DNA of 64,000 nt, taken from assembly GCF_964199755.1 (NCBI RefSeq), contig NC_133904.1, positions 496,001-560,000 on the forward strand, given 5' to 3'. The notes below the pieces were generated by a model. That model did not search any database and was not told the origin of the DNA. It saw nothing but the letters and a program-made list of their open reading frames with translations. A program made the position numbers and the translations under genes. Every line of letters starts with the position of its first letter. Position 1 is the first letter of the stretch. Positions 23,240 through 50,854 of this stretch are shown in pieces. This stretch comes from Larus michahellis (lineage: Eukaryota; Chordata; Aves; Charadriiformes; Laridae).

Positions 23240-25385
23240 GCGGGGGGAGCGATGCCGCTGCCGTCGTGGGCGGGGGGGCAGACCCCGAGCCGGGGGTCCT
23301 GGGGGTCCCCACCCTGGGGGGGTCGTTGGCTTGGGGAAAGGCGCCGTGTGGGTGCACGAAGGGGCCGGCGCGGGGCTGTGGGGTGCGGGGCAGGCGGTGG
23401 GGCTGTGGGGTTCGTGTGCAGGGGGGTCATAGAGCACGTATGTGATGGGGCGGGCTTTGGCGGGGGGGGTCGGTCCATGAGGGTGCGTGAGGTTACGGGG
23501 CTGCGGGATGTGCGCGCGTGCGAGGTTATGGGGCGCGTGGGGCCAGAGCCTCAAGGGAGCTGTGTGCCCACGTGCGTGACACCCGTGTGCCCTGTGTGTG
23601 GGACACGGGACACGCGTGTGCGCCGTCTGCAAGGGCCGCGGGAGGAGGAGGCTTTGCAGTGGGGGGAGCAGCAGCCGGCGTGGGCTGGGGGAGATGGGGG
23701 GCGTGGGGTGGTGCAGGCAGCCCGGGGAGGGGGCTCAGAGCAGGGTGTGGGGGCCGCTGGCGTCAACAGGGGAGAAGTGTGTGAGGGGGCCGGCCCTGGG
23801 GCGAGCCGGGGTGAGTGACTGCACGCCATGCCCGAGGGGAGTCTGTGTGGGGAGGGCCAGTGCCTGCAGGGGCACAGGGTGCCCGTCAGTGCGGGACGGA
23901 GGGCGTGCAGGGTGCCTGGCACCTTCACGGCTGCTGCGGCCCCCGGTCCCTGGGGGACTGTCCCAGCCGTGATTTGGCGTCTGCTGTTCCCCACACCCTG
24001 TGTGGGGGGTGTCCCTGGGGGGTGTCCCTTCGGCCAGGGCAGGGACCGGGGCACAGCGTCCCTGTGCTGTGCCGCGGGGACGGCCAGGCCGTGGGGACGG
24101 CCGGGCTCCACAGCGCAGGGGTTGCCCAGGAACGCCGCGGCATCCCAGGGCCTGCTCTGCCGGGAAGAGTGACACTGGCGGGTGCAGCTGGGCGCTGTTG
24201 AGGACAGGGCACGGTTCCCTGAGGACACGCTCAGCCTCACCCCACCTTTGCCCCAGAGGTGCCTCTCCCAGCAGGACGTGCCCATGTCACCCCGCTGGAG
24301 AGACAGATCTTGGGAAGAGGAGTTTCGGTTCCCAGGGAGAGACCAGCGCTTCCCCTCCCCACCCTGCCCCTCGCCGGGACTTTGCTCCATGGTTTCTGCT
24401 GTGCCCGCTCTGACGCCCCAGCCCAGGGACGCCTCTGGCAGAGCTCCCGGGGCTGACCCACAGGGCCTGGGGGGCTCGGGCTGCTCTCCCTGCCAGGGCA
24501 GAGCTCTCAGGAGACGTGTGCGCCCTGAGCCCCGGCTCAGTGTTTGCGTGGCTCCAGCCAGACCCCTGGCCAGGGGCTCTGCGCCGTGGGGCGCGGGTGA
24601 GGCTGTGCCCACGGGATCCCCCATCTCCCAGCCATGTGCTGTGCGGCTCGGGACCCCCAGCTCGCCCGGGCTGCGGCTGGCGGGGGGGCTGAGCGTTGCC
24701 TGTGGCACGTGCAGGCTGCTGGGTGCCCCGCGGTGGGTGGCAGCGGGCATGTGCCTGCACAGGCTGGGTTCACAGGGCCTGGAGTTTGACCTCCAGGTGC
24801 GAGCCCGGTGACTCAGCCCTAGACTTCGAGAGGGCTGCGGGCAAGGTGGGCTCCCCAGCACAGCCCGGGCTCCACCCGCGCCGCCCAGACCCCCGCGGCT
24901 GCACCCTGCGCCCTCCCGCTTTGCCCCTGGTGCCTGGGCAGCCTGGCGAGGTGCACCCCTGCCAGGCCGCGGGTGCCACCGTGCCCTCAGCCCCAGCAGC
25001 AGGTCCCTCGCAGGCAGAGGGGCAGCCAGGACCCCCCAGTGATGATGCAGACCCCGTCACTTGAGGGCAAACAGGGCAATGCTGAACCAGAGGGTGGGCT
25101 CGGGTGCCGGGGCTGCCCGCCTTGCCCCGCGGTGAGGTGGGGATGTGGTCGCCGGCTGTGACCACCCGCTCTGTCCCTCCTTTTGCAGGGCCAGGCAGGT
25201 GCTTGGGAGGGACCCTGGGAGTCCTGGCTCACAGTCCGTGCCCACGCCCGCGCTGCCCATCCCCAGTGGTGCAATCCCGAGCTGCTGGTTTCACCTCCCG
25301 CTCTAGTGGCACTGGGTTTTAGTGCTCCTGCAAGGCCAGGTGGCGGGTGGGTGGAAAGCTCATCCTGGGGGCTGTCGCCACCCTG
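23240..25385. other. Spacer or first intron before ANPEP coding start
   Basis: GC-rich DNA with a short GTG-rich section at about 23480-23620. No recognised coding exon on either strand. If the exon ending at 23235 is real, most of this is ANPEP intron. Confidence 0.4.
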
Positions 25386-25510
25386 AGCCTCATGCTCGTT
25401 TAATACTTCACTCATTAACTTGGACTAATAAACCTCAAGTGAGCGAGAGGCTAAAAGCCGTGCCAGCCAGGCAGCACCTCCTGCGTGAGCACCGCCGCCG
25501 CAGCACCACC
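25385..25510 (+). promoter_or_regulatory. ANPEP: ANPEP proximal promoter and 5' UTR
   Basis: An AT-rich island (about 25395-25440) sits in otherwise GC-rich DNA. It holds CATTAAC at about 25411-25417, which is half of an HNF1 site, and TAATAAA at about 25425-25431, which could act as a TATA-type element about 80 bp before the start codon. In mammals the epithelial ANPEP promoter is proximal, TATA-containing and HNF1-driven, which matches this arrangement. Site quality is only moderate. Confidence 0.45.
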
Positions 25511-28500
25511 ATGGCAGCCGGTTTCTTCATCAGCAAGAGTGTGGGCATCGTGGCCATTGTGCTGGGCCTGGGGGCTGTGGCCACCATCATCGCGCTCTCG
25601 GTGGTGTATGCCCAGGAGAAGAACAAGGGGCATATCTCAGATCCTGGCAATGCTGAGACCACCACTGCCGTCGCTGAGACCACCACCACCGCCATCCCCA
25701 AGACCACCACCACCGCCGTCCCCAAGACCACCACCACCGCCGTCCCCGCCACCACGGCTGCCTCCAGCACCACCACCGTCCCCGACAACCCCTGGAACCG
25801 GTGGAGGCTGCCGACGACGCTGATGCCAGAATCCTACGAGGTGACCCTGCAGCCCTTCCTGACGCCCAACGCCAACAACATGTACATCTTCAAGGGCAAC
25901 AGCAGCGTGGTCTTTGTCTGCAAGGAAGCAACCAACCTCATCCTCATCCACAGCAACAAGCTGAACTACACCATGCAGGGGTCCTTCCTCGTCTCGTTGG
26001 AGGCAGTGGATGGCTCCAGTGCCCCTCTCATCTCCAAAACCTGGCTGGAGAGCTCCACCCAGTACCTGGTGGTGCAGCTGGACGGCCAGCTGCAGAAGGA
26101 CCAGCGCTACCGACTCTTCAGCATCTTCACGGGGGAGCTGGCTGATGACCTGGCCGGCTTCTACCGCAGCGAATACATGGATGAGTTGGGCGACACGTAG
26201 GTGGAGGGCAGGGGGCCGAGGGGGGTGCGGGGCTGGCCTGGGGGTGGCGGAGGGCACGGGGGGGGTTTGGGGCTTCCCTCCCACTGGGATGGCGGGATGG
26301 GTGCGGGGAAGCCTCCGTGCCCCGCTGTGTCTGCATGCCACCCCCAGCGAGGAGGGGGCTGGGGAGCGGGCAGGGTGTGGGGGGAGCGGAGGGATCCGGG
26401 GGGGTGCTGGCCCTGCAGAGGCCCCCCCGGGTGCTGACGGGGTTTGCTTGCAGGAAGGTGGTGGCCACCACTCAGATGCAGGCAGCAGACGCGCGGAAAG
26501 CCTTCCCCTGCTTTGATGAGCCGGCCATGAAAGCCACCTTCACGGTGACGCTGATCCATCCCTCCGACCACAAAGCCATTTCCAACATGCCTGTCAACAG
26601 TGAGTGGGGCGGGGGGAGCCCCGGCGGGGGGGCCCAGGGGCCTGGCAGGGCTGCGCGGTGACCCTGTACCCTCTGCTCCCCGCAGGCACCCAGCAGATGA
26701 AGGACGACAATAAGTGGAACATCACCACATTCCAGACCACCCCCAAAATGTCCACCTACCTGCTGGCCTTCATCGTCAGCGAGTTCGACTACGTGGAGAA
26801 TACCTCGGAGAACGTGCTGGTAGGCTGGGGGTGGGAGACACCCCCTTGCCCGCCGGGGGGGTCTGTGCCCGGGCAGCGGCTGAGCCCCATGTCTCTCCCC
26901 TCCAGATCCGCATCTGGGGCCGCCCCAAGGCCATCGCTGAGGGCCAGGGCGACTATGCCCTCCAGGTGACTGGCCCCATCCTCAAGTTCTTTGAGGAAAG
27001 CTACAACATGTCGTACCCGCTGCCCAAGTCCGGTGGGTGCCACGGGGCGGCCAGGTCTCCGAGAGGAGCTGCCTGCCGCGGGGGGGACGGGCAGTCCGGC
27101 TCCCCGGCAGCAGCACACCAACGGGACCCCTCTGTCCCCCAGACCAGGTCGGCCTCCCCGACTTCAACGCGGGCGCGATGGAGAACTGGGGGCTGGTGAC
27201 CTACCGGGAGAACTCGCTGCTCTTTGACAACAACTACTCCTCCATCAGCAACAAGGAGCGGGTGGTGACCGTCATCGCCCATGAGCTGGCCCACCAGGTA
27301 CCCCCCCGGACCCCCCACCTGCCCTGCTGGCTGGCTGGGCCTGGCTGACGGGGTGCTGTGCTCCCCCGGCAGTGGTTCGGGAACCTGGTGACGCTGCAGT
27401 GGTGGAACGACCTGTGGCTGAACGAGGGCTTCGCCTCCTACGTGGAGTACCTGGGCGCCGACTCGGCAGAGCCCTCCTGGAACATCGTGAGTGCTGGGGC
27501 CAGCGGGCAGGGGGTGCAGGCACCCCCGCCACCCCTGCACCCCCGGGGGCGTCCCCCGCGGCCAGGAGGGCGCAGGCAGGGCTGAAGCGGGTGCTGGCAC
27601 TCACCCCCGCAGAAAGACCTGATGGTGCTGAACGAGGTGTACGCGGTGATGGCGACGGACGCCCTGGCCACCTCCCACCCGCTGACCTTCAGCGAGGAAG
27701 AGATCAACACCCCGGCCCAGATCAGCGAGGTCTTCGACAGCATCGCCTACAGCAAGGTGGGCGCACGGGCACCGGGGCGGTGGGGTGGGCTGCGGGGTGC
27801 CCCGCGCGCCCGGGGTCTCTCACCCGCCGTCTCTGCAGGGCGCGTCCGTGCTGCGGATGCTCTCCGACTTCCTCACCGAGGACGTGTTCCGGGAGGGGCT
27901 GCAGGTGAGGCTCTGCTGGTGCCAGGGGGCACCGAGCCCCAGCGCGGGGTGGGTGGCCCATGGCAGGGCCCTCCCCGGGTGCTCTGTGGGTGTCCTGCAC
28001 CCCGGACCTGCCCCTGCCCCTGCCCACCTGTCTCTCCCGGTGCCCTCTCACAGACCTACATCAAAACCTTTGCCTACGGCAACACCAACTACACGGACCT
28101 CTGGCAGCATTTGCAACAGGTAGGAGGGGGATGGCGGCTCCCGGCTGCTCCCCCCAACACCGGCCCCTTCCCCGCCGCTGCCCCAGCTCTCGGGGGCTGC
28201 TGGTGAGACGGGGTCCCAGCCACGTGGCTGCTGCGCGCTGGGCGAGGGGTGCAGCGCCAGCTGAGCCCCGCGCCCCACCCGCACCCCACGGCACCGGTGA
28301 CCCGCGGCGCTGCCCCCCCCCGCAGGCTGTCGAGAAGAACAATGTCGTGCTGCCCAGCTCCATCGGCGGCATCATGGACACCTGGACGCTGCAGATGGGC
28401 TTCCCCGTGGTGACCGTCAACACCCTTGATGGCACCATCAGCCAGAAGCACTTTCTGCTGGACCCCAACTCCAAGGTGGACAGGCCCTCCCCCTTCAAGT

Positions 28501-31028
28501 GAGTGGCGTGGGGGCTGTTGGTGACGGGGAACTGGGGGGGCCAGGGGGCAAGGGCTGGTCCCACCACCTTCCTGTCCCCGGCACAGCTACAGCTGGATCG
28601 TCCCCGTCACCTGGATGACGAATGAGACCATGGGGGACAGGTACTGGCTGACCAAAGTCTCAGGTATGGTGTGTCCTGCCCAGGCTGGGAGCAGGTGTCT
28701 TGCTGCCACCTCCCCTGCCCTGGCGGAGGTTGGGGTCCCCCAGGGGGGACACCGGTGGGGGGGGCTGAGCCTGGCCTCCCTCGCGGGTGGGGGGCGACTC
28801 TGTCAGACCCTCCTCTCCCCCTCCCAGACACCAACGACACATTCAAGGTGGGCAGCGCCAGGTGGCTCCTGCTGAACCTGAACGTCAGTGGGTACTTCCG
28901 CGTCAACTACAACCAGGAGAACTGGGAACAGCTCCTCGCCCAGCTCTCCAGCAACCACCAGGTACGCGGGGCCAGCCGGGGCCATGGCGTGGGCTGTGGG
29001 TGGGCCCCCACCTTGCACACCCCCACACCCCACGCACCCCACTCAGGGCTGCCCTGCGACGCCGATTCTGCCCTCTCTCAGGTCATCCCCGTGATCAACC
29101 GTGCCCAGATCATCGATGATGCCTTTAACCTGGCCAGGTGAGCCGCACCGGCTGCCCCGGGGGGGTCCAGCGGGGTGGGAGCCCTGAGAGCGGGCAGCGG
29201 CCGTGGGTTCGGAGGGCTGACTCTGTCCTCCCCCCTCACAGGGCCAAGTACGTCAACGTGACCTTGGCCTTGAGCACCACGCGGTTCCTGAGCCAGGAGA
29301 CGGAGTACATGCCCTGGGAGGCAGCGCTCAACAACCTCCATTACTTCCAGCTGATGTTTGACCGCAGTGAGGTCTTCGGGGTGATGACGGTGAGCGGTGC
29401 CACCCGCCCAGCCCCGGCCCCCTTCTGCCGCTTGGCAGAGCCCCGTGCCAGGGGCACGGGGGCGAGGGGCTGAGTCCGCACCCAGAACTGGGTTGGGGGC
29501 TGCTGCTGGTGCCACCGGGCGCTGACCGTCCTCCTGCCCCCCAGAAATACATACGGAAACAGGTGACGCCCCTCTTCAACCACTACAAGAACATCACCGG
29601 CAACTGGAACAACATCCCTGAGGACCTGATGGACCAGTGAGTGCCACGGCCCCGGGGCTGGGCTGGACTCCCGGGGTCTCCCCGGCCACACCAGGATGGT
29701 CACCCCAGTGTGTGCTGGGGACAGGGCACGGCCCCGCTCGCGACTCGGCACCGGCTGGTTGGTGCCTGGCTGTCATGTGCTGGTCCCCAGCCCCGCGCCG
29801 CCCCTCTCTCCCCAGGTACAACGAGATCAACGCCATCAGCACAGCCTGCTCCTACGGCATCGCTGAGTGCCAGGACCTGGCCACCAACTACTACACGCAG
29901 TGGCAGCAAAACATCAGCCATAACCCGTGAGTCCCCAGGGTGCCCCAGTGCCACCATGGTGGACGACCGCCCAGCGAGGGGCTCCCAGCTGAGATGGCTC
30001 TTCTCTCCCGCAGGATCCCCCCGAACCTGCGCTCCTCCATCTACTGCAGCATAGTGGCCACGGGCGGGGAGGAGGCCTGGACCTTTATCTGGGACAAGTT
30101 CCAAGAGGCCACTGTCGTGTCCGAGGCTGACAAGCTCCGCACGGCCCTCTCCTGCAGCCGCGAACCCTGGATCCTCAACCGGTGGGTGCGGGGTCCCGGC
30201 TGGGCGCCGCGACTCTGCCCCTGCCGGCCCCTCACCCGGTGACGTGTGCCCCCCCAGGTACCTGCAGTACACCCTCGACCCCAAGAAGATCCGGAAGCAG
30301 GATGCCACCGCCACCATCAACAGCATCGCCAGCAACGTGGTGGGGCAGCCCTTGGCCTGGGACTTCATCCGCGGCAACTGGAAGACGCTCTTCAGCCAGT
30401 GAGCACCGCGGGGGGGCTGCAGGGGGCTGCGGGGGGCTGGCTGGGGCGGGCAGCATCCCCCATCTGCCCGTGCCCCTTTGGGGGGTGCTGCTCTACCCGG
30501 GACCCCCGGCTCAGCCGTCCCTCTGCTCTCCCAGGTATGGGGGCGGCTCCTTCTCCTTCTCCCGGCTGATTTTGTCAGTGACCCAGCGGTTTTCCACGGA
30601 GTTTGAGCTGCAGCAGGTGAGGCTGGACCCTGGAGCTGGCACCAGGGATGCCCAGCCCCGGCTGCGGCGGGGGCACGGCTCTGTGCTGGCGGTGCCTTGC
30701 AGCTCGCCCTTCGCCAACAGCTCCTGCGCCCCATGTGCCCAGGGGTCCGGGCAGCCAGGGCACTGCTGGGGGCTGTCAGGGGCTGCCGGGGTTGTGCCGG
30801 GGGGCCGTCGGGGGGCTGCTGGGGTTGCCCCACACCCGTTCCAGCCCCTCTCCTCCCCTGCAGCTGCAGCAATTCAAGGAGGACAACCAGGACGTCGGCT
30901 TCGGGTCGGGGACGCGGGCGCTGGAGCAGGCGCTGGAGAGGACCCGCGCCAACATCAACTGGGTGAACGAGAACCAGCAGACGGTGCTGTCCTGGTTCCA
31001 GGGTGAGATCATGGCTCCCCGCCGCTAA
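25511..31028 (+). CDS. ANPEP: Aminopeptidase N (CD13), 20 coding exons, M1 zinc metallopeptidase
   Basis: Type II membrane ectoenzyme that removes N-terminal neutral residues from peptides. Exons: 25511-26196, 26454-26599, 26686-26819, 26906-27032, 27143-27297, 27373-27486, 27613-27756, 27839-27904, 28054-28119, 28326-28498, 28587-28663, 28828-28961, 29082-29137, 29242-29389, 29545-29636, 29816-29926, 30014-30181, 30258-30398, 30535-30616 and 30864-31028. All are GT-AG, phases close, and 2985 nt gives 994 aa (human 967). A short cytoplasmic N-terminus precedes a membrane segment at about residues 10-33. A Thr-rich stalk follows (about 45-95), longer than in mammals, made of a 24-bp repeat. 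Active-site parts are all present: GAMEN at 375-379, HELAH at 411-415 split from WFGN by intron 5, third zinc ligand Glu434 in [12 protein letters not shown], and catalytic-site Tyr500. The ERAP1-like C-terminal half ends with [15 protein letters not shown]-like sequence. The start is the Met before the membrane segment. It is the intact orthologue, tail-to-tail with the next gene. Confidence 0.98.
25668..25765 (+). repeat. ANPEP: 24-bp coding minisatellite in the ANPEP stalk
   Basis: About four copies of a 24-bp unit coding for (A/T)TTTTA(V/I)PK-type octapeptides in exon 1, just outside the membrane segment. The Thr-rich product should be heavily O-glycosylated. Confidence 0.9.
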
Positions 31029-31399
31029 CGCATGGATGCCACGCAACGCACTCTCCGCCCGACCCAGCTGGCACAGGATGGGCTGGCGGGGGCTGAACTG
31101 AAGCTCATGGACCCCACTGCCCCACAGCCGTGGGGCTGGACCCTCACCCACTCCCCAGCTCTGCTCACTCCAGCCACCGGCCCCAAACGCTCCCTCCTGG
31201 TGGCCCCGGCCCAGCCTGGCCGGGTCCTGGGCTGCTCGGGAGGGGCTGGGGCCAATGCCCACGGCGGGGCCTGGCGCCTGTATGATGGGCGATAGGGTGG
31301 AAATGGGGGGCTTTTGGCTGGTGGGGGGGTCCCGCTGCCCTTGGCTGCCCGGAGCGGCGCTGGGCCCTGCAGGCTCGTGCAAGGCTTGGGGGAGGTGTA

Positions 31400-31405
31400 A
31401 ATAAA
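31400..31405 (+). terminator. ANPEP: ANPEP polyadenylation signal AATAAA
   Basis: A canonical hexamer (GTAAATAAAGG context) 372 bp after the ANPEP stop codon, giving a short 3' UTR. Confidence 0.85.
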
Positions 31406-32088
31406 GGCTTGCACAACAGCTCTCACCACTGGACTGGGGTGCTGGGGGGCACGGGGGGCACATACCGGCCTGGGGGGGCTGCACTGGGGCCCGGGCAGGA
31501 AGCGCCTGGGACCCTGCGGTGGGCACGGGGTGGGGGCCGGGAACGCAGAGCCCCCTGGGCCGTTAGGAGCCCGGTGCTAAGTGGCTCTGGGGGCTTTGCC
31601 GACGCCAGCCCCCCGGCCCCTCCGTCTGACGGCTGGGTGCGATTTCTCCTGCCGGGTCCCGGCACCGCACGGCGCCTGGCCTGCCCGGTCCCTCCGGGCA
31701 TGGGAGGTCTCCCCACTGTCCCCTCGGAGCAGGCGCTGTGGGGTCGGGGCAGGAGGCAGCCACGGCTCCCTGGGCTGCCCTGGCAGGAGGGGGTGCCAGC
31801 AGCTGGCCCCCCCGGGGACCGTCCCCCGTGGACTGCCCGGGTCCCCGCAGGGAATGGTTTGGGCAGAGGGACCCGACGGGCGGGTGGGAGCTGCTCTTCC
31901 AGCGGTCAGTGGGGCTGGGGAAGCGCCCTGGGTGGGGGTTCCCTCCGTCACCCCAGCTCTGGGGACATCTCTGAGCTGCGGGGTGGGCTGGCTGGGGACA
32001 CCGAGCCCCTGGCGCGGCGTGGGGTGCCCCTGGCGCAGCGACTGGGGTCCCGCAGTAACGAGTCGGAGCGCAACAGTGCAATGGCAGC

Positions 32089-32094
32089 TTTAAT
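32089..32094 (-). terminator. Probable polyadenylation signal (ATTAAA) of the minus-strand MESP gene
   Basis: TTTAAT on the plus strand reads ATTAAA on the minus strand, about 300 bp past the end of the minus-strand MESP reading frame. It lies about 690 bp from the oppositely oriented ANPEP signal. ATTAAA is the commonest variant signal. No better hexamer is visible nearby. Confidence 0.5.
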
Positions 32095-32577
32095 GAGCAG
32101 CCCTTCCCCGGCGTCCGTCCGGCACGGCTCTATGGGACGGCCACGCCGCCGTCCCCCACACGGCCGCTGCGGCTGGGGGTGCAGGATCAGCTCCAGCCCC
32201 CCCAGTGCCGTGCTGGGGTGCAGCTGGGCAGGACGGGGTCTGCACGGGGGGCCGGGCAGACGAGCCTGTGCAGGGCGGGTGGGCTGCCGAGCTGTGCAGA
32301 AAGAGCTGTGTCAGGCGAGCGGCCGTGGGGCGGTACCGCGCCCCCCACCCCACACCCCGGTGCCCCCCACCCCGCACCCGGGCTGACTCTCCGGCTCAGC
32401 ACGCATCAGTCTGTGCCCCCCAGCGCAGGCAGACCCCCCCGGCCATGGCGTGCAGGGGGATTTGCTGAAGCAGCCCTGCCCGCGCCCTGCGAGGAGCATC
32501 CACCCCCCGGCCCCGCTGCCCCCGAGGGCGGTGGGTGCGGGAGCAGGGGCTGGGCTGGGGAGGGGGCTGTGGGTACC

Positions 32578-33554
32578 TGGCAGTGCGCAGGCAGCTGGGA
32601 GCCACGCGTGGGCGTCTCGGGGGGCCCTGCGTCCGTCAGTCCTGCCCCAGGAGGCTGCGGGGGGGCTGCAGGTTCCAAGCAGCAGGAGGAAGCCGTCCCG
32701 GTGCCCGTGGCGGTGGCGCGTGTCTGGGGGGGCTCCAGCGGGGTGACTGCTCCGAGGCTGCACAGCGGTGATGACCAGGACCCCGAGATGGAGACAGGGG
32801 TCCTGTGCAGCTCCAGGGGGATCCCTGCGACAGGGATGTAGGGGGGCAACCCCCAGGCCTCCATGCCCGTGTCGGGAACCCCAAGCACCTCTGGGGGGGT
32901 CCCCGCAGCAGAGCCACACGGGGGTGATCCCCAGGCACCCGTCCCCATGCCAGGAGCCCCGTGAAGATCCAGGGACGTCCCCATCATGGGAGGGGACCCC
33001 CAGCCCACAGTATCAGGGGACGAAGCATCCCGTGGGGCTGGAGCTGGTGGGTGCAGGCGGGGGTCCGGGGCCTGGCAGCACCCCAGACCCTGTGGGCAGA
33101 GGGGGCAGTGCCGGGGGGCCGCCCCCCGCCGCCGGGCCAGCGCCTCCTCGCTGAGCCCCAGCAGGGCCGAGAGGTGGGCGATGTAGCGGATGGCGAGGCG
33201 CAGGGTCTCGATCTTGGTCAGGCTCTGCCCCGCGGGCACCAGCGCGGGCGGCAGGTAGTGCCGCAGCCTCAGCAGCGCCTGCGCCAGCCGCCGCATCCGC
33301 AGCTTCTCCCGCTCGCTGGCGCTCTGCCGCGGGCCCCCCGGCCCCCCGCGCCGCCCTGGCTCATCCCCACCCCCATGCTGCCCCCCGGCTCCCGGCTGCC
33401 GGCCCCGCGGGGGACATGGGGACGCACGGGGGGGCTCTCCAGAAGGGGTTGGGGAGATGGTGTCGACGAGCCCCCTGGCCCGGTCCTGGAGCAGGGCATG
33501 GCCTGCTGGGGGCTGGGGACCTCGGGGCAGGAGTGGGGCTGGGGGTCCATCCAT
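32578..33554 (-). CDS. MESP2: MESP-family bHLH factor, minus-strand copy (exon 1; last exon uncertain)
   Basis: Mesoderm-posterior type basic helix-loop-helix transcription factor, which in vertebrates acts in presomitic mesoderm segmentation and early cardiac mesoderm. From Met at 33554 the frame reads through a Pro/Gly-rich N-terminus into the bHLH (about residues 76-130; basic part [14 protein letters not shown], helix 2 [20 protein letters not shown]). The family CPLCP motif follows at 150-154, then a tail of WGSPP-type repeats. A donor (CAG then GTACCC) at 32578/32577, in phase 0, matches the intron position of the sister gene. The last exon probably lies at about 32396-32485, but its acceptor and frame are not certain. 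Residues from just before the bHLH to GMEAWG are almost identical to the plus-strand copy. The symbol follows from human order (ANPEP beside MESP2), because homogenisation prevents assignment by sequence. ANPEP converges on it and its sister diverges from it. Confidence 0.85.
32830..33345 (-). repeat. Left arm of a 516-bp inverted repeat shared by the two MESP genes
   Basis: Reverse complement of this segment aligns without gaps to 37666-38181 with three mismatches (33330 against 37681, one near 33020 against 37991, one near 32848 against 38163). It covers the bHLH, the CPLCP motif and part of the C-terminal domain. Sequence outside the arm falls sharply in similarity. Confidence 0.95.
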
Positions 33555-33600
33555 GGCTGGGGTCTGCTCTGCCGCCCGCCTCTGGGGGTGCCCAGGCAGC

Positions 33601-33728
33601 CCTGGCTTTATGCGGGGCAGGGGCGCGAGGTGACACCTTTGCGACCACCTGGAGGTGTCAAAACCTACAGAGCCTGGCTGGGGCCGGCCGGGAGCCTGGG
33701 AATGCTGGGCCCATTTGCAGAGGTGTCA
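33601..33728 (-). promoter_or_regulatory. Core promoter with T-box-type sites, minus-strand MESP gene
   Basis: On the minus strand, GCATAAAGCCAGG at 33613-33601 forms a TATA-like element about 50 bp before the start codon, closely matching the sister gene. Upstream lie AGGTGACACCT at 33628-33638 (back-to-back T-box half-sites), an E-box CACCTG at 33646-33651, AGGTGTCA at 33653-33660 and AGGTGTCA at 33721-33728. Tbx6 is the established activator of vertebrate Mesp2 through such AGGTGTBA half-sites, so this is probably the presomitic mesoderm promoter. CTGGGAATG near 33697 only loosely resembles an RBPJ site. Confidence 0.6.
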
Positions 33729-33899
33729 TTTCTGACTCCTCCGGCCCTTAATTGGCGCTGCCCGGCGCTGGGAAGTGTGCAGGGACCAATTCACACGGCC
33801 ATGAGAGATGCTAACGCGTCGACCAGCCCTGCCAGGGCCCGCACCACCCCGCACGGCACCACTGCTGTGCTGCTGGGGGCAGCGGGGACTTGACCTTCC

Positions 33900-35940
33900 A
33901 GTGCTGGGACGCTGAGCCACCAGCCCTGACACCCAGCAGTGTCCCCACACCTCCCCTGCCCTCTGCACAGCTCCCAGCCCCGCGGGCCGGGGGTCCTGAG
34001 TGTGCCCCCAGCTCCAACCAACCACCTGGAGGGGCAGGGGGATGCAGGAATGTGGCAGCCGGGCTGGTGCGCTGGTGCCGGGACCAGTGGGCTCCTCTTC
34101 GGGTGACGTCCCTTGCCCTGGCCGTACTGCCTTGTTCTCCCTGACCCAGCGGGATGCAGCCCCGGCTCTCTGAGCTGTTGGCGTGCTCTGGAGAAGCTGG
34201 AGGCACAGCCTGAGTTTTTGTGGGGATCCAGCAGGCTGTGCCCCCCCCCCGAATGGAGCTGAGGCTCCCCGTGCTGCTTGTCCAGCTGGTGCAAACCCCA
34301 GAGCCGGGTCGGGGTCCCCGAGGCAGCGGGCAGCAGTGTGCTGGGGTGCTAAGCCCTTTAGGATGCTCCAGGGCAGGGGACGCTGCCAGCACCCATGTGC
34401 TGGGGACGCAGCAGGAGCAGGGGGGAGGCAGCTACTGGCCCTGCTCTGGGGTGGGCAGCGCTCCCGGCTGCAGAGGGCCATTTGCCGGGATGCGTTTGCA
34501 GTTCTCCCGCGGGCTGGGCACAGCCTCTGGGCACCGTCCCTGCCAGCCGTCCACGTCCCGGCCGGAGGTACAGGAGCTCACAGCCAGGGCCAGGAGCCCT
34601 GCGGCCGTACGATGCCCAGGAGGTGCGCCAGAGCAGGGATGGTGAGTCCAAGGTAGACAGTAAGGCACACTGGGGAGGGCCCCCGGCAGTGCCCGGCGGG
34701 ACCCCCTCAGTGGGAGGGCTGGCGGCTCCTGGGGGCATGAGTCTGAATGGGCACCGACCGCCTGAGGAGGGCTTTGGCCAGCTTTGGCCAGCAGCACCAT
34801 CAGGAGCCCTGTGGCTGAGCCCCATCCCAGTGCCCTCTCCCCATCCACCCACGGCCCTGTGCCCACGCTCCTTCAATAAGGGCTGGAGGGACACGGGGGT
34901 GACCCCATCCCCCCCGAGCTGTGGGGGGCTGTGGGCTCTGCCTTGGGGGGGCTCTGACCCCACGGCCAGCGCTGTGACAGCCCAGCCGCGCTCCAGCACT
35001 TGTCTAAACACAGGGGGAGGTGGGAAGCGGCTGCTCAGCGGGGCCGCAGAACTCATTACCCAGGAGCTCATCAGCTAATGAGACCCAGGAGGGGGCCTGG
35101 GAACGGGGGGAGCGGGGCCAGGGCAGTGCCGAGGGGCGTGCGGGGAAGGGCCTGCGCCCCAGGCCGTGCTGTTGGGTGCAGGGCACCCCGCAGAGCACCC
35201 TGCCGCACTCCCGAGGCCAGGCTGCCCATGGACCCCCACTGCAGCCCCCAGCCCCAGAGACAGGCTCTGGGATGGCATCAGATGTTTGTGTACCCAGAGA
35301 CGTGCTGTGGGTCCGGGTCGGCACCGGCACCCTTGGACCTTGGTCAGGGCAGCGGCACGGCACTTCCTCCAGCGAGATGGCAGCGGGAATTAATAGCAAT
35401 TAACTCTGGTGCTTTTGTGCCATGTCTGCGATGTCCGTGGGAGATAATGCCAATTTAGATGCCGATATCCTCATGGCATGCATGCCTGGAGCAGGGCTTG
35501 GCCAAGGGCCGGGCTGCAGGGGTGACAAATCAGGGTGCAGGTAGCTCCGAGCAGCACAAGGGCCGGGTGCCACGGTGTGGCTTGGTGGCAGGATGGGACC
35601 GTGGCAAGGGACCACAGGGTCCCCACAGCCCCTGCACCGCTGGATGCCCAGGACCCTGCGACAGCCGCATGATGCGGGTTTGAAACACTGGAGATCGCCG
35701 TGCCCAGGCTCCCCACGAGGCCGGGGCACCCGGGGCTGAGCAGCGTGCCTGGCTTCGGCAGCGCGGCGAGGACGGCGGGAGCACTTGGCCACCGCTGGGT
35801 GATAAGCAGGGTTTATCTCATTGCCTCTGCGTCATGGCAGTGCCAAGGAAAACTGAACAAGCTCCATGTGACCACCAGGAAACACGAGATGGTGAGCAAC
35901 GAGGTGCCCGCTCACCCGCCCCGTCGCCAACACTGTCACG
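33900..35940. other. MESP intergenic region, left part
   Basis: About 2 kb between the divergent MESP genes without recognisable exons. AT-richer, possibly conserved islands lie at about 35035-35095 (CTCATTACC, CTAATGAGA) and 35375-35465 (GGGAATTAATAGCAATTAAC and GATAATGCCAATTTAGATG). They are candidates for enhancers of the flanking genes, on composition only. Confidence 0.4.
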
Positions 35941-35942
35941 GG

Positions 35943-36190
35943 GAGGGGCCGGCCCTGCGCCCCACTGCTGGCTCTGCGCCCCACTGCTGGCCCTGCGCCC
36001 CACGGTGCCACAGCTGGCCCTGTGCCCCGTGGCCCCACAGCTGGCCCTGTGCCCCACTGCTGGCCCTGCGCCCCGTGGCCCCACAGCTGGCCCTGTGCCC
36101 CGTGGCCCCACAGCTGGCCCTGTGCCCAGCCCCATGCCCGACAGCTGGCCCTGTGCCCCACTGCTGGCCCTGTGCCCCATGCCCAGCTCC
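35943..36190 (+). repeat. Minisatellite of CCACTGCTGGCCCTG / CCACAGCTGGCCCTGTG units
   Basis: Irregular tandem copies of two related 17-27 bp units over about 250 bp. Open frames across it are only translations of the repeat. Confidence 0.9.
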
Positions 36191-36224
36191 GTGGCTGATA
36201 CCTGATATTGGGGAAGCCTGTGCC

Positions 36225-36405
36225 CACCCGGCATTGGGGGGGCTGTGCCCACCCAGTATGAGGGGGTCCCACACCCGCTGCCGTATCCCCGGGGCCGTGC
36301 ACACCCGGTACGGGGGGGTCCGTGCCCACTGCCGTATCTCCGGGGCTGTGCCCACCCAGTATGGAGGGGTCCCGTGCCCCCCGCTGTACCCCCGTCGCCG
36401 CGCAC
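36225..36405 (+). repeat. Minisatellite with a unit of about 58 bp
   Basis: About three degenerate units, each containing GTGCCCACCCAGTATG-like, GGGGTCC and CTGCCGTAT segments. Confidence 0.75.
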
Positions 36406-36990
36406 AGCGCCGTGTGGGGGTCACGTACCCCACGGCACCGCGGGGCCGTGCTGCCGGCGGGGGGGGGCGTGCTGCCGGGGGGGGCCGTGCCGGTGCCGGT
36501 GCCGGGGGTGGTGCTCCGGCCCCCCCGCCCGCTCCCTGATGGATTTTCCTTCCCTTCCCGGGGCCGGGTTTCCCTGGAAACCTTCGCACCCGCCGGCACC
36601 GACACCTGCGGGGCCTGGGAACGCGGCGGGGGGGCCCCTCCCAGCCCCGCCCCGCCCGCCCCGGCCCCCCCCGTGAGGGTCCCCGCGCCCCGGCCGCCCC
36701 TCGGCGGCACCCGACGGCACCGGGCGGCGGTCGCGGCTCCGCGCCGAGGCCCCGCGGGCGGCCGGGCTCATTAGGGACAGCGTGTGAAACGCCATTAGCG
36801 GGGGCTGCGGGGGACCTGCCGCGGGAGGGCGGGCCGTGCCCCCCCGCCCCCGGCACCGGGCGAGGGGGTCGGTGCCCCACAGAGCCAGGCTGGGCACCGG
36901 GGCTGCCCCGCTGGGGCCTCGCTGCGCCGTGGGGGACGTGGACACCCGGAGCTGGCAGCTCGCACCCCACTGCAGGCCCCACTGCAGACC
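36405..36990. other. GC-rich island between the MESP genes
   Basis: CpG-dense DNA with CCGGTGCCGGTGCCGG-type runs and no recognised coding content. It contains CATTAGGGACAGCGTGTGAAACGCCATTAG at 36769-36798 in two separated homeodomain-like blocks. Role unknown. Confidence 0.4.
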
Positions 36991-37017
36991 CCTCTGTGTG
37001 GACCCCACGGCTGACCC

Positions 37018-37135
37018 CCCCCATTGCAAACCCCACGGCAGACCCCACGGCAGTCCTCCCCCCATTGCAAACCCCACGGCAGACCCCACAGCAGTCCCCC
37101 TCCATTGCAAACCCCACGGCAGACCCCCACTGCAG
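37018..37135 (+). repeat. Tandem repeat, about 45-bp unit (CATTGCAAACCCCACGGCAG)
   Basis: Two and a half units of about 45 bp, each starting with the quoted 20-mer followed by ACCCCACGGCAGTCC-like sequence, with few differences between units. Confidence 0.9.
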
Positions 37136-37364
37136 GCCCCGCTGAAGGCCCTGCTACAAGCCCCGCTGCCAGCCTCCTTGCAGCCCCCGCGTGGGGCCCA
37201 AGCCCCATCCTGAGGTCGGTGGCGGGGGGGTGAGGGCTGCCGGGGGGGGGTGGGCAGCACAGAGCCGCCTCACACCGCCGGGGTAAAATTCGTCACCCGC
37301 GTGTTCAAAGCCGGCTGCCCTCAGCCCCCCCCGGCCTTTGAAGTGCTGCTGATGCTGGCCACGA

Positions 37365-37399
37365 AGGTGCCACTTCACACCTCTGGCCCTGCATAAAGC
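37365..37399 (+). promoter_or_regulatory. Core promoter with T-box sites, plus-strand MESP gene
   Basis: AGGTGCCA at 37365-37372 and TCACACCT at 37375-37382 (AGGTGTGA on the other strand, a full Brachyury/Tbx6 half-site) form a closely spaced inverted pair. GCATAAAGCCAGGGC at about 37391-37405 follows, and the start codon is at 37439. The TATA-like block is shared almost exactly with the minus-strand MESP promoter. Confidence 0.6.
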
Positions 37400-37438
37400 C
37401 AGGGCGGCCGGGGGACACCGGCACTCGGCCCCACAGCC

Positions 37439-38838
37439 ATGGCCCGCTCGGCAGCCCCTGGCCTCCCGCTCCCCGCCACCGCCCTGCTGCAGGACTGGGG
37501 CTGCCGCGGACCCCCGGACCCCGAGGGCTACAGCAGCAGCTCGCCTGCACCCTCGCCCGACTCCTGCGGCCTCTCGTCCCCCGCCACCACCCGGGGACCC
37601 TGCCGCGGCCCCGCCACCCCTCGCCTGCGAGGCTGCTCCAGGGGCAGAAAGGGGGTGCGGGGCCCGGGGCCGGGGGGCCCACGGCAGAGCGCCAGCGAGC
37701 GGGAGAAGCTGCGGATGCGGCGGCTGGCGCAGGCGCTGCTGAGGCTGCGGCACTACCTGCCGCCCGCGCTGGTGCCCGCGGGGCAGAGCCTGACCAAGAT
37801 CGAGACCCTGCGCCTCGCCATCCGCTACATCGCCCACCTCTCGGCCCTGCTGGGGCTCAGCGAGGAGGCGCTGGCCCGGCGGCGGGGGGCGGCCCCCCGG
37901 CACTGCCCCCTCTGCCCACAGGGTCTGGGGTGCTGCCAGGCCCCGGACCCCCGCCTGCACCCACCAGCTCCAGCCCCACGGGATGCTTCGCCCCCTGATA
38001 CTGTGGGCTGGGGGTCCCCTCCCATGATGGGGACGTCCCTGGATCTTCACGGGGCTCCTGGCATGGGGACGGGTGCCTGGGGATCACCCCCGTGTGGCTC
38101 TGCTGCGGGGACCCCCCCAGAGGTGCTTGGGGTTCCCGACACGGGCATGGAGGCCTGGGGGTCGCCCCCCTACATCCCTGTGGTTGGGACCCCCTCGGAG
38201 CTGCACGGGGCTGTCGCCTCCAGCGTGTCCTCCTGGCTGTCCCCTCCTCACTGCGCAGGGGCAGGGGCCCCCCCAGACCTCCTCGGCAGCCCCCTCCTGG
38301 ACGCGGGGCTGATGCTGCCGGAGTTTGTGGATGCAGGGACAGTCACCCAGGTACGTGCGCTGGCAGGGATCGGGGGGAGCCCTGGCGGTCCCCAGTGTGG
38401 GGTTGGCATGGGGCAGGGCTCAGCCCCCGCGGTGCGCTCAGAGCCGCCTTGGCTTGGGGCAGTGCGGGGACTGGTTTTGGGGTAACAGCAGCCTTGTCTG
38501 GGGGTGGGAACGGGGAGGTGTCCCCCCTCCTCCCTGCAGTGAGTGCACGTGGGTCCCTCAGCCTGCTCCGATCCTCCCCGGTGCCATCCTCCCTCCCGTT
38601 TGTGGCATCCCATCAGCTGGGACAGGCCTGAGGCCGTGGTCCTGCTTGGCCCTGACCGGAGTCCTCCTGGCGGGTGGGCTCTGCCAGCCCCTCTTCCAGC
38701 ACCCCCCCAGACCCCAGCCCTGCCCTGGACCCTGCCCTGGCCGGTCACCCTCTCACCCACCCTCTGCTCCCCCAGGACCTCTCCACGGACCTGTTCTCCC
38801 TCCTGGAGGCTCTGTTCCCGCCACAGCCCCAGGACTGA
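37439..38838 (+). CDS. MESP1: MESP-family bHLH factor, plus-strand copy, two exons
   Basis: Mesoderm-posterior bHLH transcription factor. Exon 1 is 37439-38350 and exon 2 is 38776-38838, joined in phase 0 (CAG then GTACGT; CCCCAG then GAC), giving 324 aa. The N-terminus has the family-like ALLQDWGC and a Ser/Pro stretch ([18 protein letters not shown]). The bHLH spans about residues 82-136, followed by CPLCP at 156-160, a Pro/Gly-rich middle, and the short final exon [20 protein letters not shown], an acidic-hydrophobic tail that may be the transactivation end. The start Met lies about 40 nt after a TATA-like box flanked by T-box sites. Residues from about 78 to 242 are nearly identical to the minus-strand sister. 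By human gene order this is the MESP1 position, but the symbol is tentative because of homogenisation. Chick literature calls this pair cMeso genes. It diverges from its sister across 3.8 kb. Confidence 0.92.
37666..38181 (+). repeat. Right arm of the 516-bp MESP inverted repeat
   Basis: Matches the reverse complement of 32830-33345 with no gap and three mismatches, so 99.4% identical. The inner ends are 4.3 kb apart. Confidence 0.95.
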
Positions 38839-39027
38839 CGCAGATGAGCCCCCGGCTCCCCGGTGCCGGAGCACCCGCTGCCACGCGGCCCCACGACGCA
38901 CCGGCGGATGCCTGCAGCTCGGGGAAGCGTGTCCCCCCTTGGACAGCTGGGAGGTGGGGGGACGAGCTACCTCTTGTGTGAGCCCGCAGCTCTGCTGGAC
39001 GTGCCAGGGCGGCCGCGACTGTACATA

Positions 39028-39033
39028 AATAAA
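39028..39033 (+). terminator. MESP1: Polyadenylation signal of the plus-strand MESP gene
   Basis: AATAAA in the context ACATAAATAAACCC, 190 bp after the stop codon and followed by a GTG-rich flank. Confidence 0.85.
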
Positions 39034-39039
39034 CCCTTG

Positions 39040-40420
39040 TGCCCCTCCGTGTGTCACCGCGTGGCTGTTCCTGCGGCAGGAGCTGGGCACGGGATGGGGT
39101 GCAGCACGTCTGGGCCACTGCGTCACCTCCGGGAGTGGGTTTGGGGCCGGGAGAGGGTGGCTGAGCAGGGTTAAATGTGGGCACATGGGGTCCAGCAACA
39201 GGCAGAAGCGTGGGGCCGAGGTGACCCCATCGGGATGGAGACCCCGCAGGTGGAGGGGAGTGCGGGGGGGGCTGAAGACCGGCCCCTCTGCCCCCCAGCC
39301 CCTCGTCGGCTCCCTGCAGGGTCTGGGGAGTCCATTAGAGGGGCCGTGGTGGGGACTGACAGCCGGGTGCGAATGTGCTGGGGGGGCCCTTCCCCGCCCA
39401 CTCCGGGGGCCCTGGGGCAGGGGGTCTGCAGGGCTAATGAGCCCCACTTATCTGTGAAATGGCTTGCTAATAATGTTAATTCCCTCTGCCAGGGGGGCGA
39501 AGCCTTTGAGATGCAAAGCAGGTCCCCTGCCCTCCCCCAGGCTGCAGCTCCCCCCTGGCCAGGGCTCATGGGCCTTGGGGACACCCTGTGGCCATGGGGA
39601 CATGCTCCGGCCGTGGGGACAACCACGGTCTGGGGGAGCAGCTGGCAGAGGCAGGGCTGGGAGAAGGGACCTGTGGGTCTCTGGGCTCCCCAGATGCACC
39701 CCAAAGTGAGGGGCCTTGTGCACCCCGATCCCCGGCCCTGGGGAGGCCAGTGCAGCACCCACCAGTGCTGGGGCACGCTCGGGCTGGGGGGCTCCCTCCC
39801 ACGGCTGCTGGGCATCTCCCTCTGCCCAGCTCCTCGCCCAGCTCCCCCGTCCCGCACATACTGCCCTGCCCCGCGTGCGTGTCCTGGGGACGGCAGCCGT
39901 ACAGGGTGCCGAGCAGGGGCCACGCCAGCCCCGCGCCGCTGGGATGGGGTTTGGGATGAGCCGGTGGAGCGGGAGCGGGCAGAGGGGGACGGAGCTGCCT
40001 GCGGGCGGGTGGGGGGGCAGAGCTCAGGGCAGAGCTGTGTGTGCACGTGCCCAGGGACGTGTGCGTCTGCGTCTGCACCAACAGGAACGTGCATTCGTGT
40101 CCCTGTGTGTGTGTGTGTGTGTCCCCGTGTGTGAGCACTGTGCACGCTTACGTGTCCGTGTGCGCGTGTGGGTGGCGCGGGGCGAAGGACCAAGCCGTTC
40201 CAAGCGGGCTGGCTACGTCAAGGAGCAACCTGAGCTACCAAGGGCATCCCACCGCCCGCCTGCTGAGTGTGGCCCAGCAGCAGGCAGGAGGGGGCTGCAG
40301 GCGCCGGCAGTACCTGTCCTGCTCCCTCTCTTCCCCGGGCCCCCGCCAGCTCACTGCCAGCAGGCACGGCGCGGATGCGGGAGCCCTCGGCACGGAGAGC
40401 CGGCAGCGCGTGAGCAGTGG
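39040..40420. other. Spacer between MESP and the GnRH receptor gene
   Basis: No exon recognised. An AT-rich block at about 39430-39520 holds CTAATGAGC, CTTATCTG (GATA type), TAATAATGTTAATT and ATGCAAAG (octamer-like), and looks like a compact regulatory element. A GTG-rich simple-sequence stretch occupies about 40030-40175. Confidence 0.45.
40030..40175 (+). repeat. GTGTG-rich degenerate microsatellite
   Basis: Repeated GTGTG and CGTGTG blocks with short interruptions, including an uninterrupted TG run at about 40103-40122. Confidence 0.75.
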
Positions 40421-40427
40421 CCCCGAC

Positions 40428-42683
40428 ATGGCCGGGCCGGGCGGTGCTGGGCAGGACACCCTGGCTGGAGGTGAGGTGGGAGGGGGAAGGGGGTACCTGG
40501 TTCCGGGGGGCTCCAGAACTGGGCTGGGAGGGTCTCTGTCCCCGTGTAGGACCACGAGGGATGCTCGGGGGTGGAGGATGGGTGGGCAGCAGGAATGGCC
40601 TGGGGTAGGTGGTGGGTTGGGGTCAGCAGAGACTGTCTCCCCCTGCCCTGCTTGGTGCCAAGGACCCCCAAAGCTCTATGGGGCGGGGGGGTGTCTGGAG
40701 GAGCCGCGGGGCTGCAGAGAGCAGCTGAAGATGGGAATGCAGTGAGATAAGGTGGGGGTTGCGGTGTGGGGCAGGGAGCAGGGCTCCAGGGAACGGACCT
40801 CCTACACTGAGCGTGACCTGCCCCCCCACCAAGCCCCCACCCCAGGGTCCCCTCCGGGCAGGCTGCCGCTGCCTGTCTGCCTGTTGCGGCAGGAAGGAGC
40901 CATCCGGACGCAGAGCCTGCAGTGGGGAACGCCAGCGCAGACCCCTCCAGCAGCCTGCCCCCCCCGGAGCGGGGCTGCGCCTGGAGCCCCCAGGCCGAGG
41001 GCGGCGAGGAGCCCCTGCGACTGCCCACCTTCTCCCCCGCCGCCCAGGCCCGCGTGGCCGTCACCTTCCTCCTCTTCGCCCTCTCCGCCGGCTGCAACCT
41101 GGCGGTGCTGCGGGCGGCGGGGGGCCGGCGGGGTGGCCGGCGGTCCCACATCCGCCTGCTGCTGCTGCACCTGGCGGCCGCCGACCTGCTGGTGACGGTG
41201 GCGGTGATGCCGCTGGATGCCGTCTGGAACATCACGCTGCAGTGGCGGGCGGGCGACCTGGCCTGCCGCCTCCTCATGTACGTCCGGCTGCTGGCCATGT
41301 ACGCCTCCGCCTTCGTCACCGTCGTCATCAGCCTGGACCGGCAGGCTGCCATCCTGCGCCCGCTGGCCATCGCCCGTGCCCGGAGGAGGAACCGCATCAT
41401 GCTCTACGTCGCCTGGCTCCTCAGCGCCGGGCTCTCGGTGCCGCAGGTACCCGTCCCCGGGGCTCCTCTCCAGCCCGTGCCCCGTGGCAGATGCCCACCT
41501 GCCCCCCAGGGTGTCCCCGGGGCTGGTGCCGCCGCGAACCCTGCAGGATGGGGATGGAGAAGGCTTGGAGGGAGGCAGCCGAGCCGGGCAGTGAAGGAGG
41601 GGCTGTGGCATCGTGCCCCTTCCATCTCAGCTCCCGCCCTGCTGTGTGCCCCAGCCCCGGGCAGTGGGGAGCGGAGCTGGCACAGGGACCCAGTCCCACG
41701 GGCAGGGTCTCACCCTGTGGCTCCGGTGGTCCCCGGCTCCAGAGCCCGGTACCCTGCCTTGGGAAGGCGTGGGGTCCCCCATCACCCCGCGGCCCTGGGG
41801 AGGGGGCTGCCATCCCACCTCTGCTCTGCCTCCAGCTGTTCCTCTTCCGCACCGTCACCCTCCGCCCCCCGCACAACTTCACCCAGTGCACCACGCGGGG
41901 CAGCTTCCCCCGGCCCTGGCACGAGACTCTCTACAACATGCTCGGCTTCACCTGCCTCTTCCTGCTGCCGCTGCTCATCATGGTCTGCTGCTACGCGCGC
42001 ATCCTCCTGGAGATCTCCCGGCGCATGGGCTCCAGCCTCTGTGAGTGCCCAGGCACCCGGCTGCCACGTCCCCGTGCCTGGGGGGCTTTGCCGGGACCCT
42101 GGGATGGGGGGAACCGAGGGGAGCTCTGGCTGGGGCTGTGCGGGGACCCCCCAGCCCTCCCTCAGGGCATGGGGTCCCTGTCCCAGCCGGGCTGCTAAGC
42201 ATCCCCCACTCCGGGCTGTGCCCTCCAGTCTCCTCCCGGGACATGTCGCTGCGGTGCTCCAGGAACAACATCCCGCGGGCACGGCTGCGCATGCTGAAGA
42301 TGAGCCTGGTCATCGTCTCCTCCTTCATCCTCTGCTGGACCCCCTACTACCTGCTGGGGCTGTGGTACTGGTTCTGCCCGCGGGCCATGGAGAAGAGGGT
42401 CTCGCCAGCCCTCACCCACATCCTCTTCATCTTCGGCCTCTTCAACGCGTGCCTGGACCCCATCACCTACGGGCTCTTCACCATCCCTTTCCGGAGGGGC
42501 TGGGGCTGCCCCTGTGGGCACGGCCCCGAGCCCCAGCCGCCCTCCCCGGCCACCGGCTCCTTCCGCTGCTCGGCCTCCTCCCTGCCACGCAAGCGGGGTG
42601 TCCCGGGGGCGCGGGGGCAGCGGGTGCCCGCTGGGCCGGGGCTGCCTGCCGGGGCTGGCTCCTGCCAGAGCAGCTCCCTGTGA
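40428..42683 (+). CDS. GNRHR: Gonadotropin-releasing hormone receptor, non-mammalian type with C-terminal tail
   Basis: Rhodopsin-family GPCR for GnRH, which in pituitary couples to Gq to release gonadotropins. Proposed exons are 40428-40470, 40923-41446, 41836-42040 and 42229-42683; phases close and give 408 aa. The first exon supplies MAGPGGAGQDTLAG, and its last G joins TG of exon 2 to make Val15; the later exon alone has no ATG. Seven membrane segments are visible: TM1 with Asn73, TM2 with Asp102 (HLAAADLL), TM3 ending in DRQ 153-155, TM6 with CWTPYY 293-298, and TM7 with DPITY 334-338. Asp in both TM2 and TM7 and a cytoplasmic tail from about 342 are features of non-mammalian receptors, because mammalian type I has no tail and Asn in TM2. 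NNIPRARLRMLKM before TM6 is a GnRH-receptor signature. N-glycosylation sites occur at Asn17 and Asn117. Exon 1 is less certain than the rest. Confidence 0.93.
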
Positions 42684-42933
42684 GCCGGGCACGGCCCCGC
42701 GCCCATGGGGGTGCCCCGGGGTGCTCAGCAGGCACCGAGGCTGCGGGCTGGAGGGGACCGGCGGCAGGACAGCGAGGGCAGCACGGGCTTGGTGGGGACG
42801 GGGTCACTGCCGCTCTTTTCCCACACCCCGAAGTGCCTCTGTGGGCTGCGGGGCTGGCTTTTGGGGGCCCCCCCAGTCCCCTCTCTGTGCCTGCCCAGCC
42901 CTGCACAGCCGCTGGAGCAGAGCCCAGCCCAGC

Positions 42934-42939
42934 AATAAA
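42934..42939 (+). terminator. GNRHR: GnRH receptor polyadenylation signal AATAAA
   Basis: AGCAATAAAGAG lies 251 bp after the stop codon and is the first canonical signal. Confidence 0.8.
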
Positions 42940-42959
42940 GAGTCCCGCAGCCACCTCCT

Positions 42960-44040
42960 GTCCTGCCCTGCCCGTGTCCCCAGCCATGAGCCGGGCTGCG
43001 GTCCCCAGAGCCAGCGCTGCTGGGACGGGTGGGTGGGAGCCCCAACCCTGGGGGTGGCTGCTCCAGAGCTGGTCCTGGCTGCTCCGGTCTCTGCCACCGG
43101 GGGGTCCCATGGCCCCCAGGGATGGGCAGCTCTGAGGGTGTCCCGCACAGTGCCCAGGGCTGGGTGCTACCCTCTTTGCGGCGGCTGCGGGGGCTTTTTG
43201 TCCCCGTGGGGCTCCTGGCCCCGGTGGTGCGTGGGGCTGGTCCCCGCTGGTGGCGCGGAGCTGGCAGCAGTCCCAGGGCACCGTGCTGCCTGCAGCAGCC
43301 TTGCACCCGCCGGCGGCTCCGCTCGAAACAGGAGCTCTTGGCTCCTGGTGAAGGTCATTGCGAGGTGCGGGGGCCCGGCTGCTCCTGGCTGCGCGGCAAC
43401 TGTCCCAAGGCCAGCGCTGCCACTGGAGCTGGCGCGGCCCGTGGGACCAGGAGAACTGGGGAGGGGGCTGCAGCGGGGCTGTGCGTGCCTGGGCCCCTTG
43501 CTCTCCCCCTGCACCTCGGAGCAGCCGGTCTGAGCCCTGCCCGTGGCTCCGGGAGCAATGCCAGGAGTGAGGGATGGCTCATGGGAACGGCCCCGGCCTC
43601 CCCCCGGCGCAGGGAAGGGTTGGGGGCAGAACCGGGGTGTGCTGCAGCCAGGACTGAAGCAAGAGGCGTCTGCCCGGAGCTCCCCGCTTTGCTGCGGTGG
43701 GTCGCTGGGCTCCATCACCCCCTTCGGTCCCTGCTGCCAGGGGGGACCCAGACCTGGGGATCTGCCCTTAGCCCCGGGGAAGTCGCGCTGCCAGCGTGGC
43801 AGCTGTGGTAACTGCCTACATCAAAATGTCTTCTCCTGACAGGGGTCTGCCGAGGGCTGGGGGGAGACGGGCATCACCCCGGCGGGTACCGAGCCTGTCT
43901 GCCGCGCGCTGGGGGGTCGAGTGCCCGATGAGGCAGGAACAGGCCGGGCGGGCTGCAGGCAGGGACAGCCAGCTCAGCAGCCACCGTGGCCACATCGGGG
44001 TGCCCATCCGGGGAGCGGTGCCCAATAATGGCAGCATGAA
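42960..44040. other. Spacer between convergent GnRH receptor and TMED3 genes
   Basis: About 1.1 kb without recognisable exons or repeats. The genes on its two sides are convergent. Confidence 0.5.
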
Positions 44041-44055
44041 GCACAGTCGCGGGGG

Positions 44056-44061
44056 TTTATT
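44056..44061 (-). terminator. TMED3: TMED3 polyadenylation signal AATAAA (minus strand)
   Basis: TTTATT on the plus strand, about 1.07 kb past the TMED3 stop codon, inside GGGGGTTTATTACGC. It implies a 3' UTR of about 1.1 kb and is the only canonical signal seen there. Confidence 0.7.

Positions 44062-49246: not shown

Positions 49247-50854
<1,608 letters not shown>

Follow-up and report, generated by a model that had tools for sequence, protein, structure and literature searches.

A near-identical 516-bp coding tract in two inverted, predicted MESP genes of Larus michahellis, and gene conversion as its probable origin

MESP genes, which are expressed in early mesoderm and in presomitic mesoderm, direct early mesoderm and somite formation. 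In human and mouse the Mesp genes are arranged head-to-head, and 93% of the bHLH residues of mouse MESP1 and MESP2 are identical (PMC4506290); mouse Anpep adjoins Mesp2, on the side facing away from Mesp1 (PMC8791502). The gene pair described here, found in a stretch of 64,000 nucleotides of Larus michahellis DNA that was analysed as a whole (the window), is like the mammalian MESP1/MESP2 pair in its head-to-head arrangement, in having ANPEP beside the MESP2 position, in its near-identical bHLH and in a C-terminal region unique to each protein. It differs in spacing, with the start codons 3.9 kb apart vs. a separation of approximately 16 kb in mouse and 25 kb in human (PMC4506290, PMC8791502). 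Conversion goes unmentioned in the passages of these two papers that describe the pair, and we found no earlier report of gene conversion in the MESP pair in the open-licence PMC literature, covered mostly as titles and the starts of abstracts. Where the term 'gene conversion' appears in the relevant passages of PMC10445033, it refers to GC-biased conversion at WDR93 and not to the MESP pair.

The two genes, here called A and B, were predicted from the letters of the window and are listed with the other features in Table 1. In both genes the length of exon 1 is a multiple of three, so that both introns are in phase 0. The second exon of gene A is given as tentative because the likeness of its exon 2/3′UTR region to that of gene B lies within the range of shuffled sequences (93 of 500 at least as good). 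Pfam HLH (PF00010) matched arm B with an E value of 4.4e-13, and the nearest solved chain to the protein of the pair was NEUROD1 (E 0.00018); MESP by name was returned by none of these library searches (Pfam HLH, PDB-chain match NEUROD1). We assign both genes to the MESP type as a prediction, based on presumed residues of human MESP1/2, on synteny and on the naming in the original prediction. Human MESP1/2, in sequences that we assume to be accurate, share 51-52 of 62 core residues with the genes of the window. Downstream of gene B lies a rhodopsin-family receptor frame (40817-43132, plus strand) with gonadotropin-releasing hormone receptor chains as its best match, and an ankyrin-repeat open frame is found at 49250-50854 on the minus strand (Pfam Ank_2, E 3.6e-19).

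Table 1. Positions of the features in the window; gene models are predicted.
Feature	Position	Strand	Details
ANPEP (aminopeptidase N) coding stretches	25307..27384	+	N-terminal open frame 25307-26197; GAMEN, HELAH and WFGN at 27172-27384
Gene A exon 2, tentative	32187..32291	-	acceptor TGCACAG; model 360 aa in all
Gene A exon 1	32577..33554	-	ATG at 33554; donor CAG/GTACCC, phase 0
Arm A	32830..33345	-	within gene A exon 1 (MESP2 position)
Spacer between arms	33346..37665		4320 bp; both N-terminal coding parts, both promoters, intergenic DNA; not homogenised
Gene A proximal promoter block	33585..33647	-	ATAAA box, AGGTGT (T-box-like) core
Gene B proximal promoter block	37356..37419	+	ATAAA box, ACACCT core
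Gene B exon 1	37439..38350	+	ATG at 37439; donor CAG/GTACGT, phase 0
Arm B	37666..38181	+	within gene B exon 1 (MESP1 position)
Graded 3′ edge of tract	38182..38209	+	21/28 identical to 32829-32802 of gene A
Gene B exon 2	38776..38838	+	model 324 aa in all; AATAAA at 39028

Direct alignment of arm A with arm B gave 516 bp with no gaps and three differences, at offsets 15, 325 and 497 (G, T and T in A; A, C and C in B). In frame (A/B) one of these is synonymous (Pro/Pro) and two are nonsynonymous (Ser/Pro and Leu/Ser), and realignment thus reproduced the arms exactly as they had first been described. Each of the three is a transition, and two belong to the CpG-decay type (CpG to CpA/TpG), as expected of fresh mutations, and this was counted in favor of conversion. 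The arms contain the last codons of the N-terminal part, the bHLH, the CPLCP linker and mid-protein sequence; the tract starts 16 bp ahead of the RQSASEREK codons and includes the whole bHLH and 108 further codons. On the 5′ side the adjoining 9 bp are identical at 6 of 9 positions and the 28 bp further out at only 7 of 28, while on the 3′ side identity is 21/28 in the adjoining 28 bp and 15/28 in the following 28 bp; the 5′ edge is therefore abrupt and the 3′ edge graded. The flanks had also been claimed to be very different, which agrees with the low identity beyond the 5′ edge and with pre-tract coding DNA that aligns like shuffled sequence.

A repeat finder (seed 14, minimum 40 nt, range 25000-45000) returned the MESP arms as the only inverted pair, at 626 nt and 92% because its match extends into the flanks. 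In self-BLAST of the whole window the pair appeared as 37657-38209 / 33354-32802 with 97.6% identity; the same search gave a second, old inverted similarity of approximately 370 bp between 1595-1966 and 13984-14353 (65% identity, 5 gap openings). The spacer between the MESP genes carries several GC-rich tandem arrays with periods of 12 to 73 (35951-36499 and 36964-37174), possibly recombination-prone DNA. No structural trigger was observed at the 5′ edge when the single 51-nt stretch 37650-37700 was folded as DNA (z 0.20; 112 of 200 shuffles folded at least as well). The formation of double-stranded RNA between the two MESP mRNAs was rejected by reasoning, as both mRNAs carry their arm in the same orientation.

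When the tract was compared with its coding flanks by the Nei-Gojobori method, its 145.8 synonymous sites held one difference and its 367.2 nonsynonymous sites two. For the flanks we obtained pS 0.711 and pN 0.408 ahead of the tract and pS 0.583 and pN 0.407 behind it, rough values from weak alignments, since the pre-tract coding DNA aligns no better than shuffles (56/500). At these rates, taken from poorly alignable flanks, 85-104 synonymous differences would be expected in the tract vs. 1 observed, and the binomial probability of one or fewer at the lower flank rate is 1.7e-53. In the gap-free codon alignment of exon 1 sequence (876 bases, 176 mismatches) the longest run with three or fewer mismatches was 518, a length reached by none of 10000 column shuffles, the largest of which gave 95.

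Within the tract, the bHLH has no differences at all, and the 108 codons past it have two nonsynonymous and no synonymous differences; amino-acid constraint is therefore no explanation. A stricter form of constraint would act on the nucleotides themselves, with selection (e.g., for an overlapping element) keeping the arms identical and no conversion taking place. GC3 is 1.00 in the bHLH of both copies, which does narrow the synonymous choice there. Yet the lack of synonymous differences holds also for the 108 post-bHLH codons, where GC3 is 0.75, and 10-11 of 62 residues are different in the human core, whose sequence we again assume to be accurate; the sequence is therefore not frozen. Constraint of this kind is, in our view, scarcely credible.

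The open frame assigned to ANPEP matches PDB aminopeptidase N chains (best E 1.1e-62) and Peptidase_M1_N, and the GAMEN, HELAH and WFGN motifs follow downstream on the same strand. ANPEP adjoins the head-to-head pair on the gene A side, in the order ANPEP - MESP - MESP. As this order is mouse-like, gene A takes the MESP2 position and gene B the MESP1 position. Most simply, the arrangement would predate the split of the bird and mammal lineages, approximately 320 million years ago. In therians MESP1, MESP2 and ANPEP are described beside WDR93, while in sauropsids the portion of that account concerned with the WDR93 flank places other genes there, so the wider synteny has been rearranged (PMC10445033), a point counted against the main account.

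Comparison of the two proximal promoter blocks (63-64 bp) showed 50 of 64 columns identical, a score that none of 500 shuffles equaled; the blocks are judged to be homologous and far more diverged than the tract. Their motifs are presumably ATAAA boxes and T-box-like cores. With its mouse-like order, its diverged promoter homology and its common intron phase, the MESP pair looks old, older than the tract it carries, which backs the premise of an old duplicate pair made in the original prediction. Elsewhere outside the tract, similarity was equaled or exceeded by 3 of 500 shuffles for exon 1 after the tract and by 8 for the intron.

These comparisons bear also on the possibility of a recent partial inverted duplication, in which approximately 0.55 kb was copied into a non-MESP gene to give a chimera. 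Such an event is compatible with pre-tract coding and exon 2/3′UTR similarities that stay within shuffles (56 and 93 of 500), but it does not account for homologous promoter blocks (0/500), for the same donor phase with an in-frame, gap-free swap, for the modest similarity directly after the tract (3/500) or for the mouse-like ANPEP order. Promoter homology, phase, in-frame swap and ANPEP order together indicate that a MESP gene already stood at each of the two places, and we consider the chimera very unlikely.

For the distribution of copies we searched the genome of 1.4055 Gb in 616 contigs; both searches score best candidates only, and their match counts are lower bounds. The DNA search gave at least 7 matches, the two arms and 5 short ones (46-120 bp, 75-89%), and the protein search at least 8, of which two were the arms and the other 6 shared 34-54% identity; the best of these 6 lay on C3 and is, we assume, mesogenin-like. 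Thus at least two full-length matches were returned genome-wide, and the two returned both lie within the window.

Assembly collapse, which had been offered as an alternative to conversion, is unlikely, because a collapse would remove a copy, whereas here both copies are placed, with unique flanks and with differences private to each; in addition, the window has no N and belongs to a 51.9-Mb contig. An artefact of assembly or polishing could take other forms, with arm reads misplaced, differences overwritten by the consensus or an arm duplicated by misassembly. Arms of approximately 0.5 kb at 74-75% GC are indeed difficult for short reads, and a perfect 74-bp palindrome elsewhere in the window could hint at local consensus errors. 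This palindrome (9061-9134) has 37-bp arms, no spacer and 89% GC; perfect spacerless palindromes are unstable in cells, and this one could be a genuine hairpin or else an error introduced by fold-back or by the consensus. Against an artefact stand the placement of the copies 4.3 kb apart between unique flanks, their three private differences and the N-free sequence on a long contig. By reasoning, mis-mapping requires arms that are already very similar and could only exaggerate a real tract. Polishing could have erased some true differences between the arms. We regard an artefact as improbable, although less so than the chimera.

What can be read directly in the window is the tract with its edges, both genes and neighbouring ANPEP, and from these we infer an event: very probably, the tract results from recent interlocus (non-allelic) gene conversion between old, inverted, head-to-head MESP paralogues. 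A bounded, near-identical tract within diverged paralogues, silent sites included, is the pattern by which gene conversion is recognized. The original prediction had proposed recent conversion between inverted copies, and the tract, its edges, the silent sites and the age of the pair favor it as the best reading. In this event, one MESP copy would have been broken within its exon 1 and mended, with no crossover, on the template of the inverted copy 4.3 kb (4320 bp) away. Approximately 516 bp would have been copied, covering the whole bHLH and 108 codons, and the N-termini, promoters, introns and C-termini would have stayed diverged. The graded 3′ edge could reflect constraint or have been left by a longer event in the past; it is not predicted by a single clean conversion event and was counted against this account.

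If neutral change proceeds at 1.5-3e-9 per site and year, the three differences over 516 bp correspond to 1.0-1.9 million years (95% intervals together 0.2-5.7) and the single synonymous difference to 1.1-2.3 million years (intervals 0.03-12.7). Under these assumed rates the conversion would be about 1-2 million years old, with an interval that is far wider.

In the 62-residue core, with the human sequences presumed correct, genes A and B are identical at 62/62 residues and the human pair at 61/62, vs. 51-52/62 across the lineages. Such a pattern is expected of concerted evolution in both lineages, and within-lineage constraint could add to it; as a comparison of protein with partly presumed sequences, it serves as a lead only. 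Pattern searches for orthologues gave 121 matches in a genome-contig collection and 16 in a viral-contig collection, with none confirmed in either. For chicken, the relevant part of one report places four genes on one contig, two named Mesp and two 'pMesp', with a fifth gene (pMespo1) on a separate contig (PMC2862960). The four-gene contig listing is not reconciled with a simple MESP pair and was counted against the main account.

It is conceivable, though we lean slightly against it, that the DNA-binding module of MESP has been repeatedly homogenised since before the bird-mammal split, with a shared bHLH in each lineage, diverging promoters, N-termini and C-termini, and possibly rare crossovers. 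If so, a shared bHLH per lineage would keep the binding specificity and the interchangeability of both MESP proteins. Occasional crossing-over between the arms would also invert the spacer and fuse the half of either gene with its promoter and N-terminus to the C-terminal half of its partner, so that the names 'MESP1' and 'MESP2' would no longer apply consistently from one end of a gene to the other.

The more limited reading, a recent gene conversion, could already account for MESP paralogues whose DNA-binding domains are near-identical but whose ends are unrelated, and it would help to keep the two proteins interchangeable. Trees built from the bHLH could assign MESP1/MESP2 orthology wrongly and give the appearance of duplications specific to a lineage. 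A crossover in the arms, hypothetical here, would invert the spacer.

Similar cases are known in other animals. The Drosophila Amy-p/Amy-d and Hsp70Aa/Ab genes are also linked inverted duplicates with near-identical coding sequences ascribed to ectopic conversion, and the flanks of the Amy genes evolve independently; as presented in the relevant sections of that paper, the Drosophila case covers several species, with paralogues more alike than orthologues in each, whereas the MESP case comes from one genome and concerns an intra-exon tract in a transcription factor (PMC3924832). Among developmental transcription factors, the Dlx genes of Capitella teleta likewise form an inverted pair for which conversion was inferred over the DNA-binding domain. 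According to the part of the report dealing with this pair, the Dlx genes are tail-to-tail and the main tract is 150 bp, with the 5′ homeodomain and intron, while the MESP genes are head-to-head and share 516 bp of bHLH and mid-protein sequence (PMC3199776). In sauropsids, NANOG of archosaurs and turtles is likewise an inverted developmental transcription factor pair; in the passage on these inverted tandem duplicates conversion is raised as a possibility and no tract is demonstrated, unlike for MESP (PMC3894937). Set beside these systems, the MESP tract is a clean case of a known process, and it is notable because it covers the DNA-binding module shared by two patterning genes.
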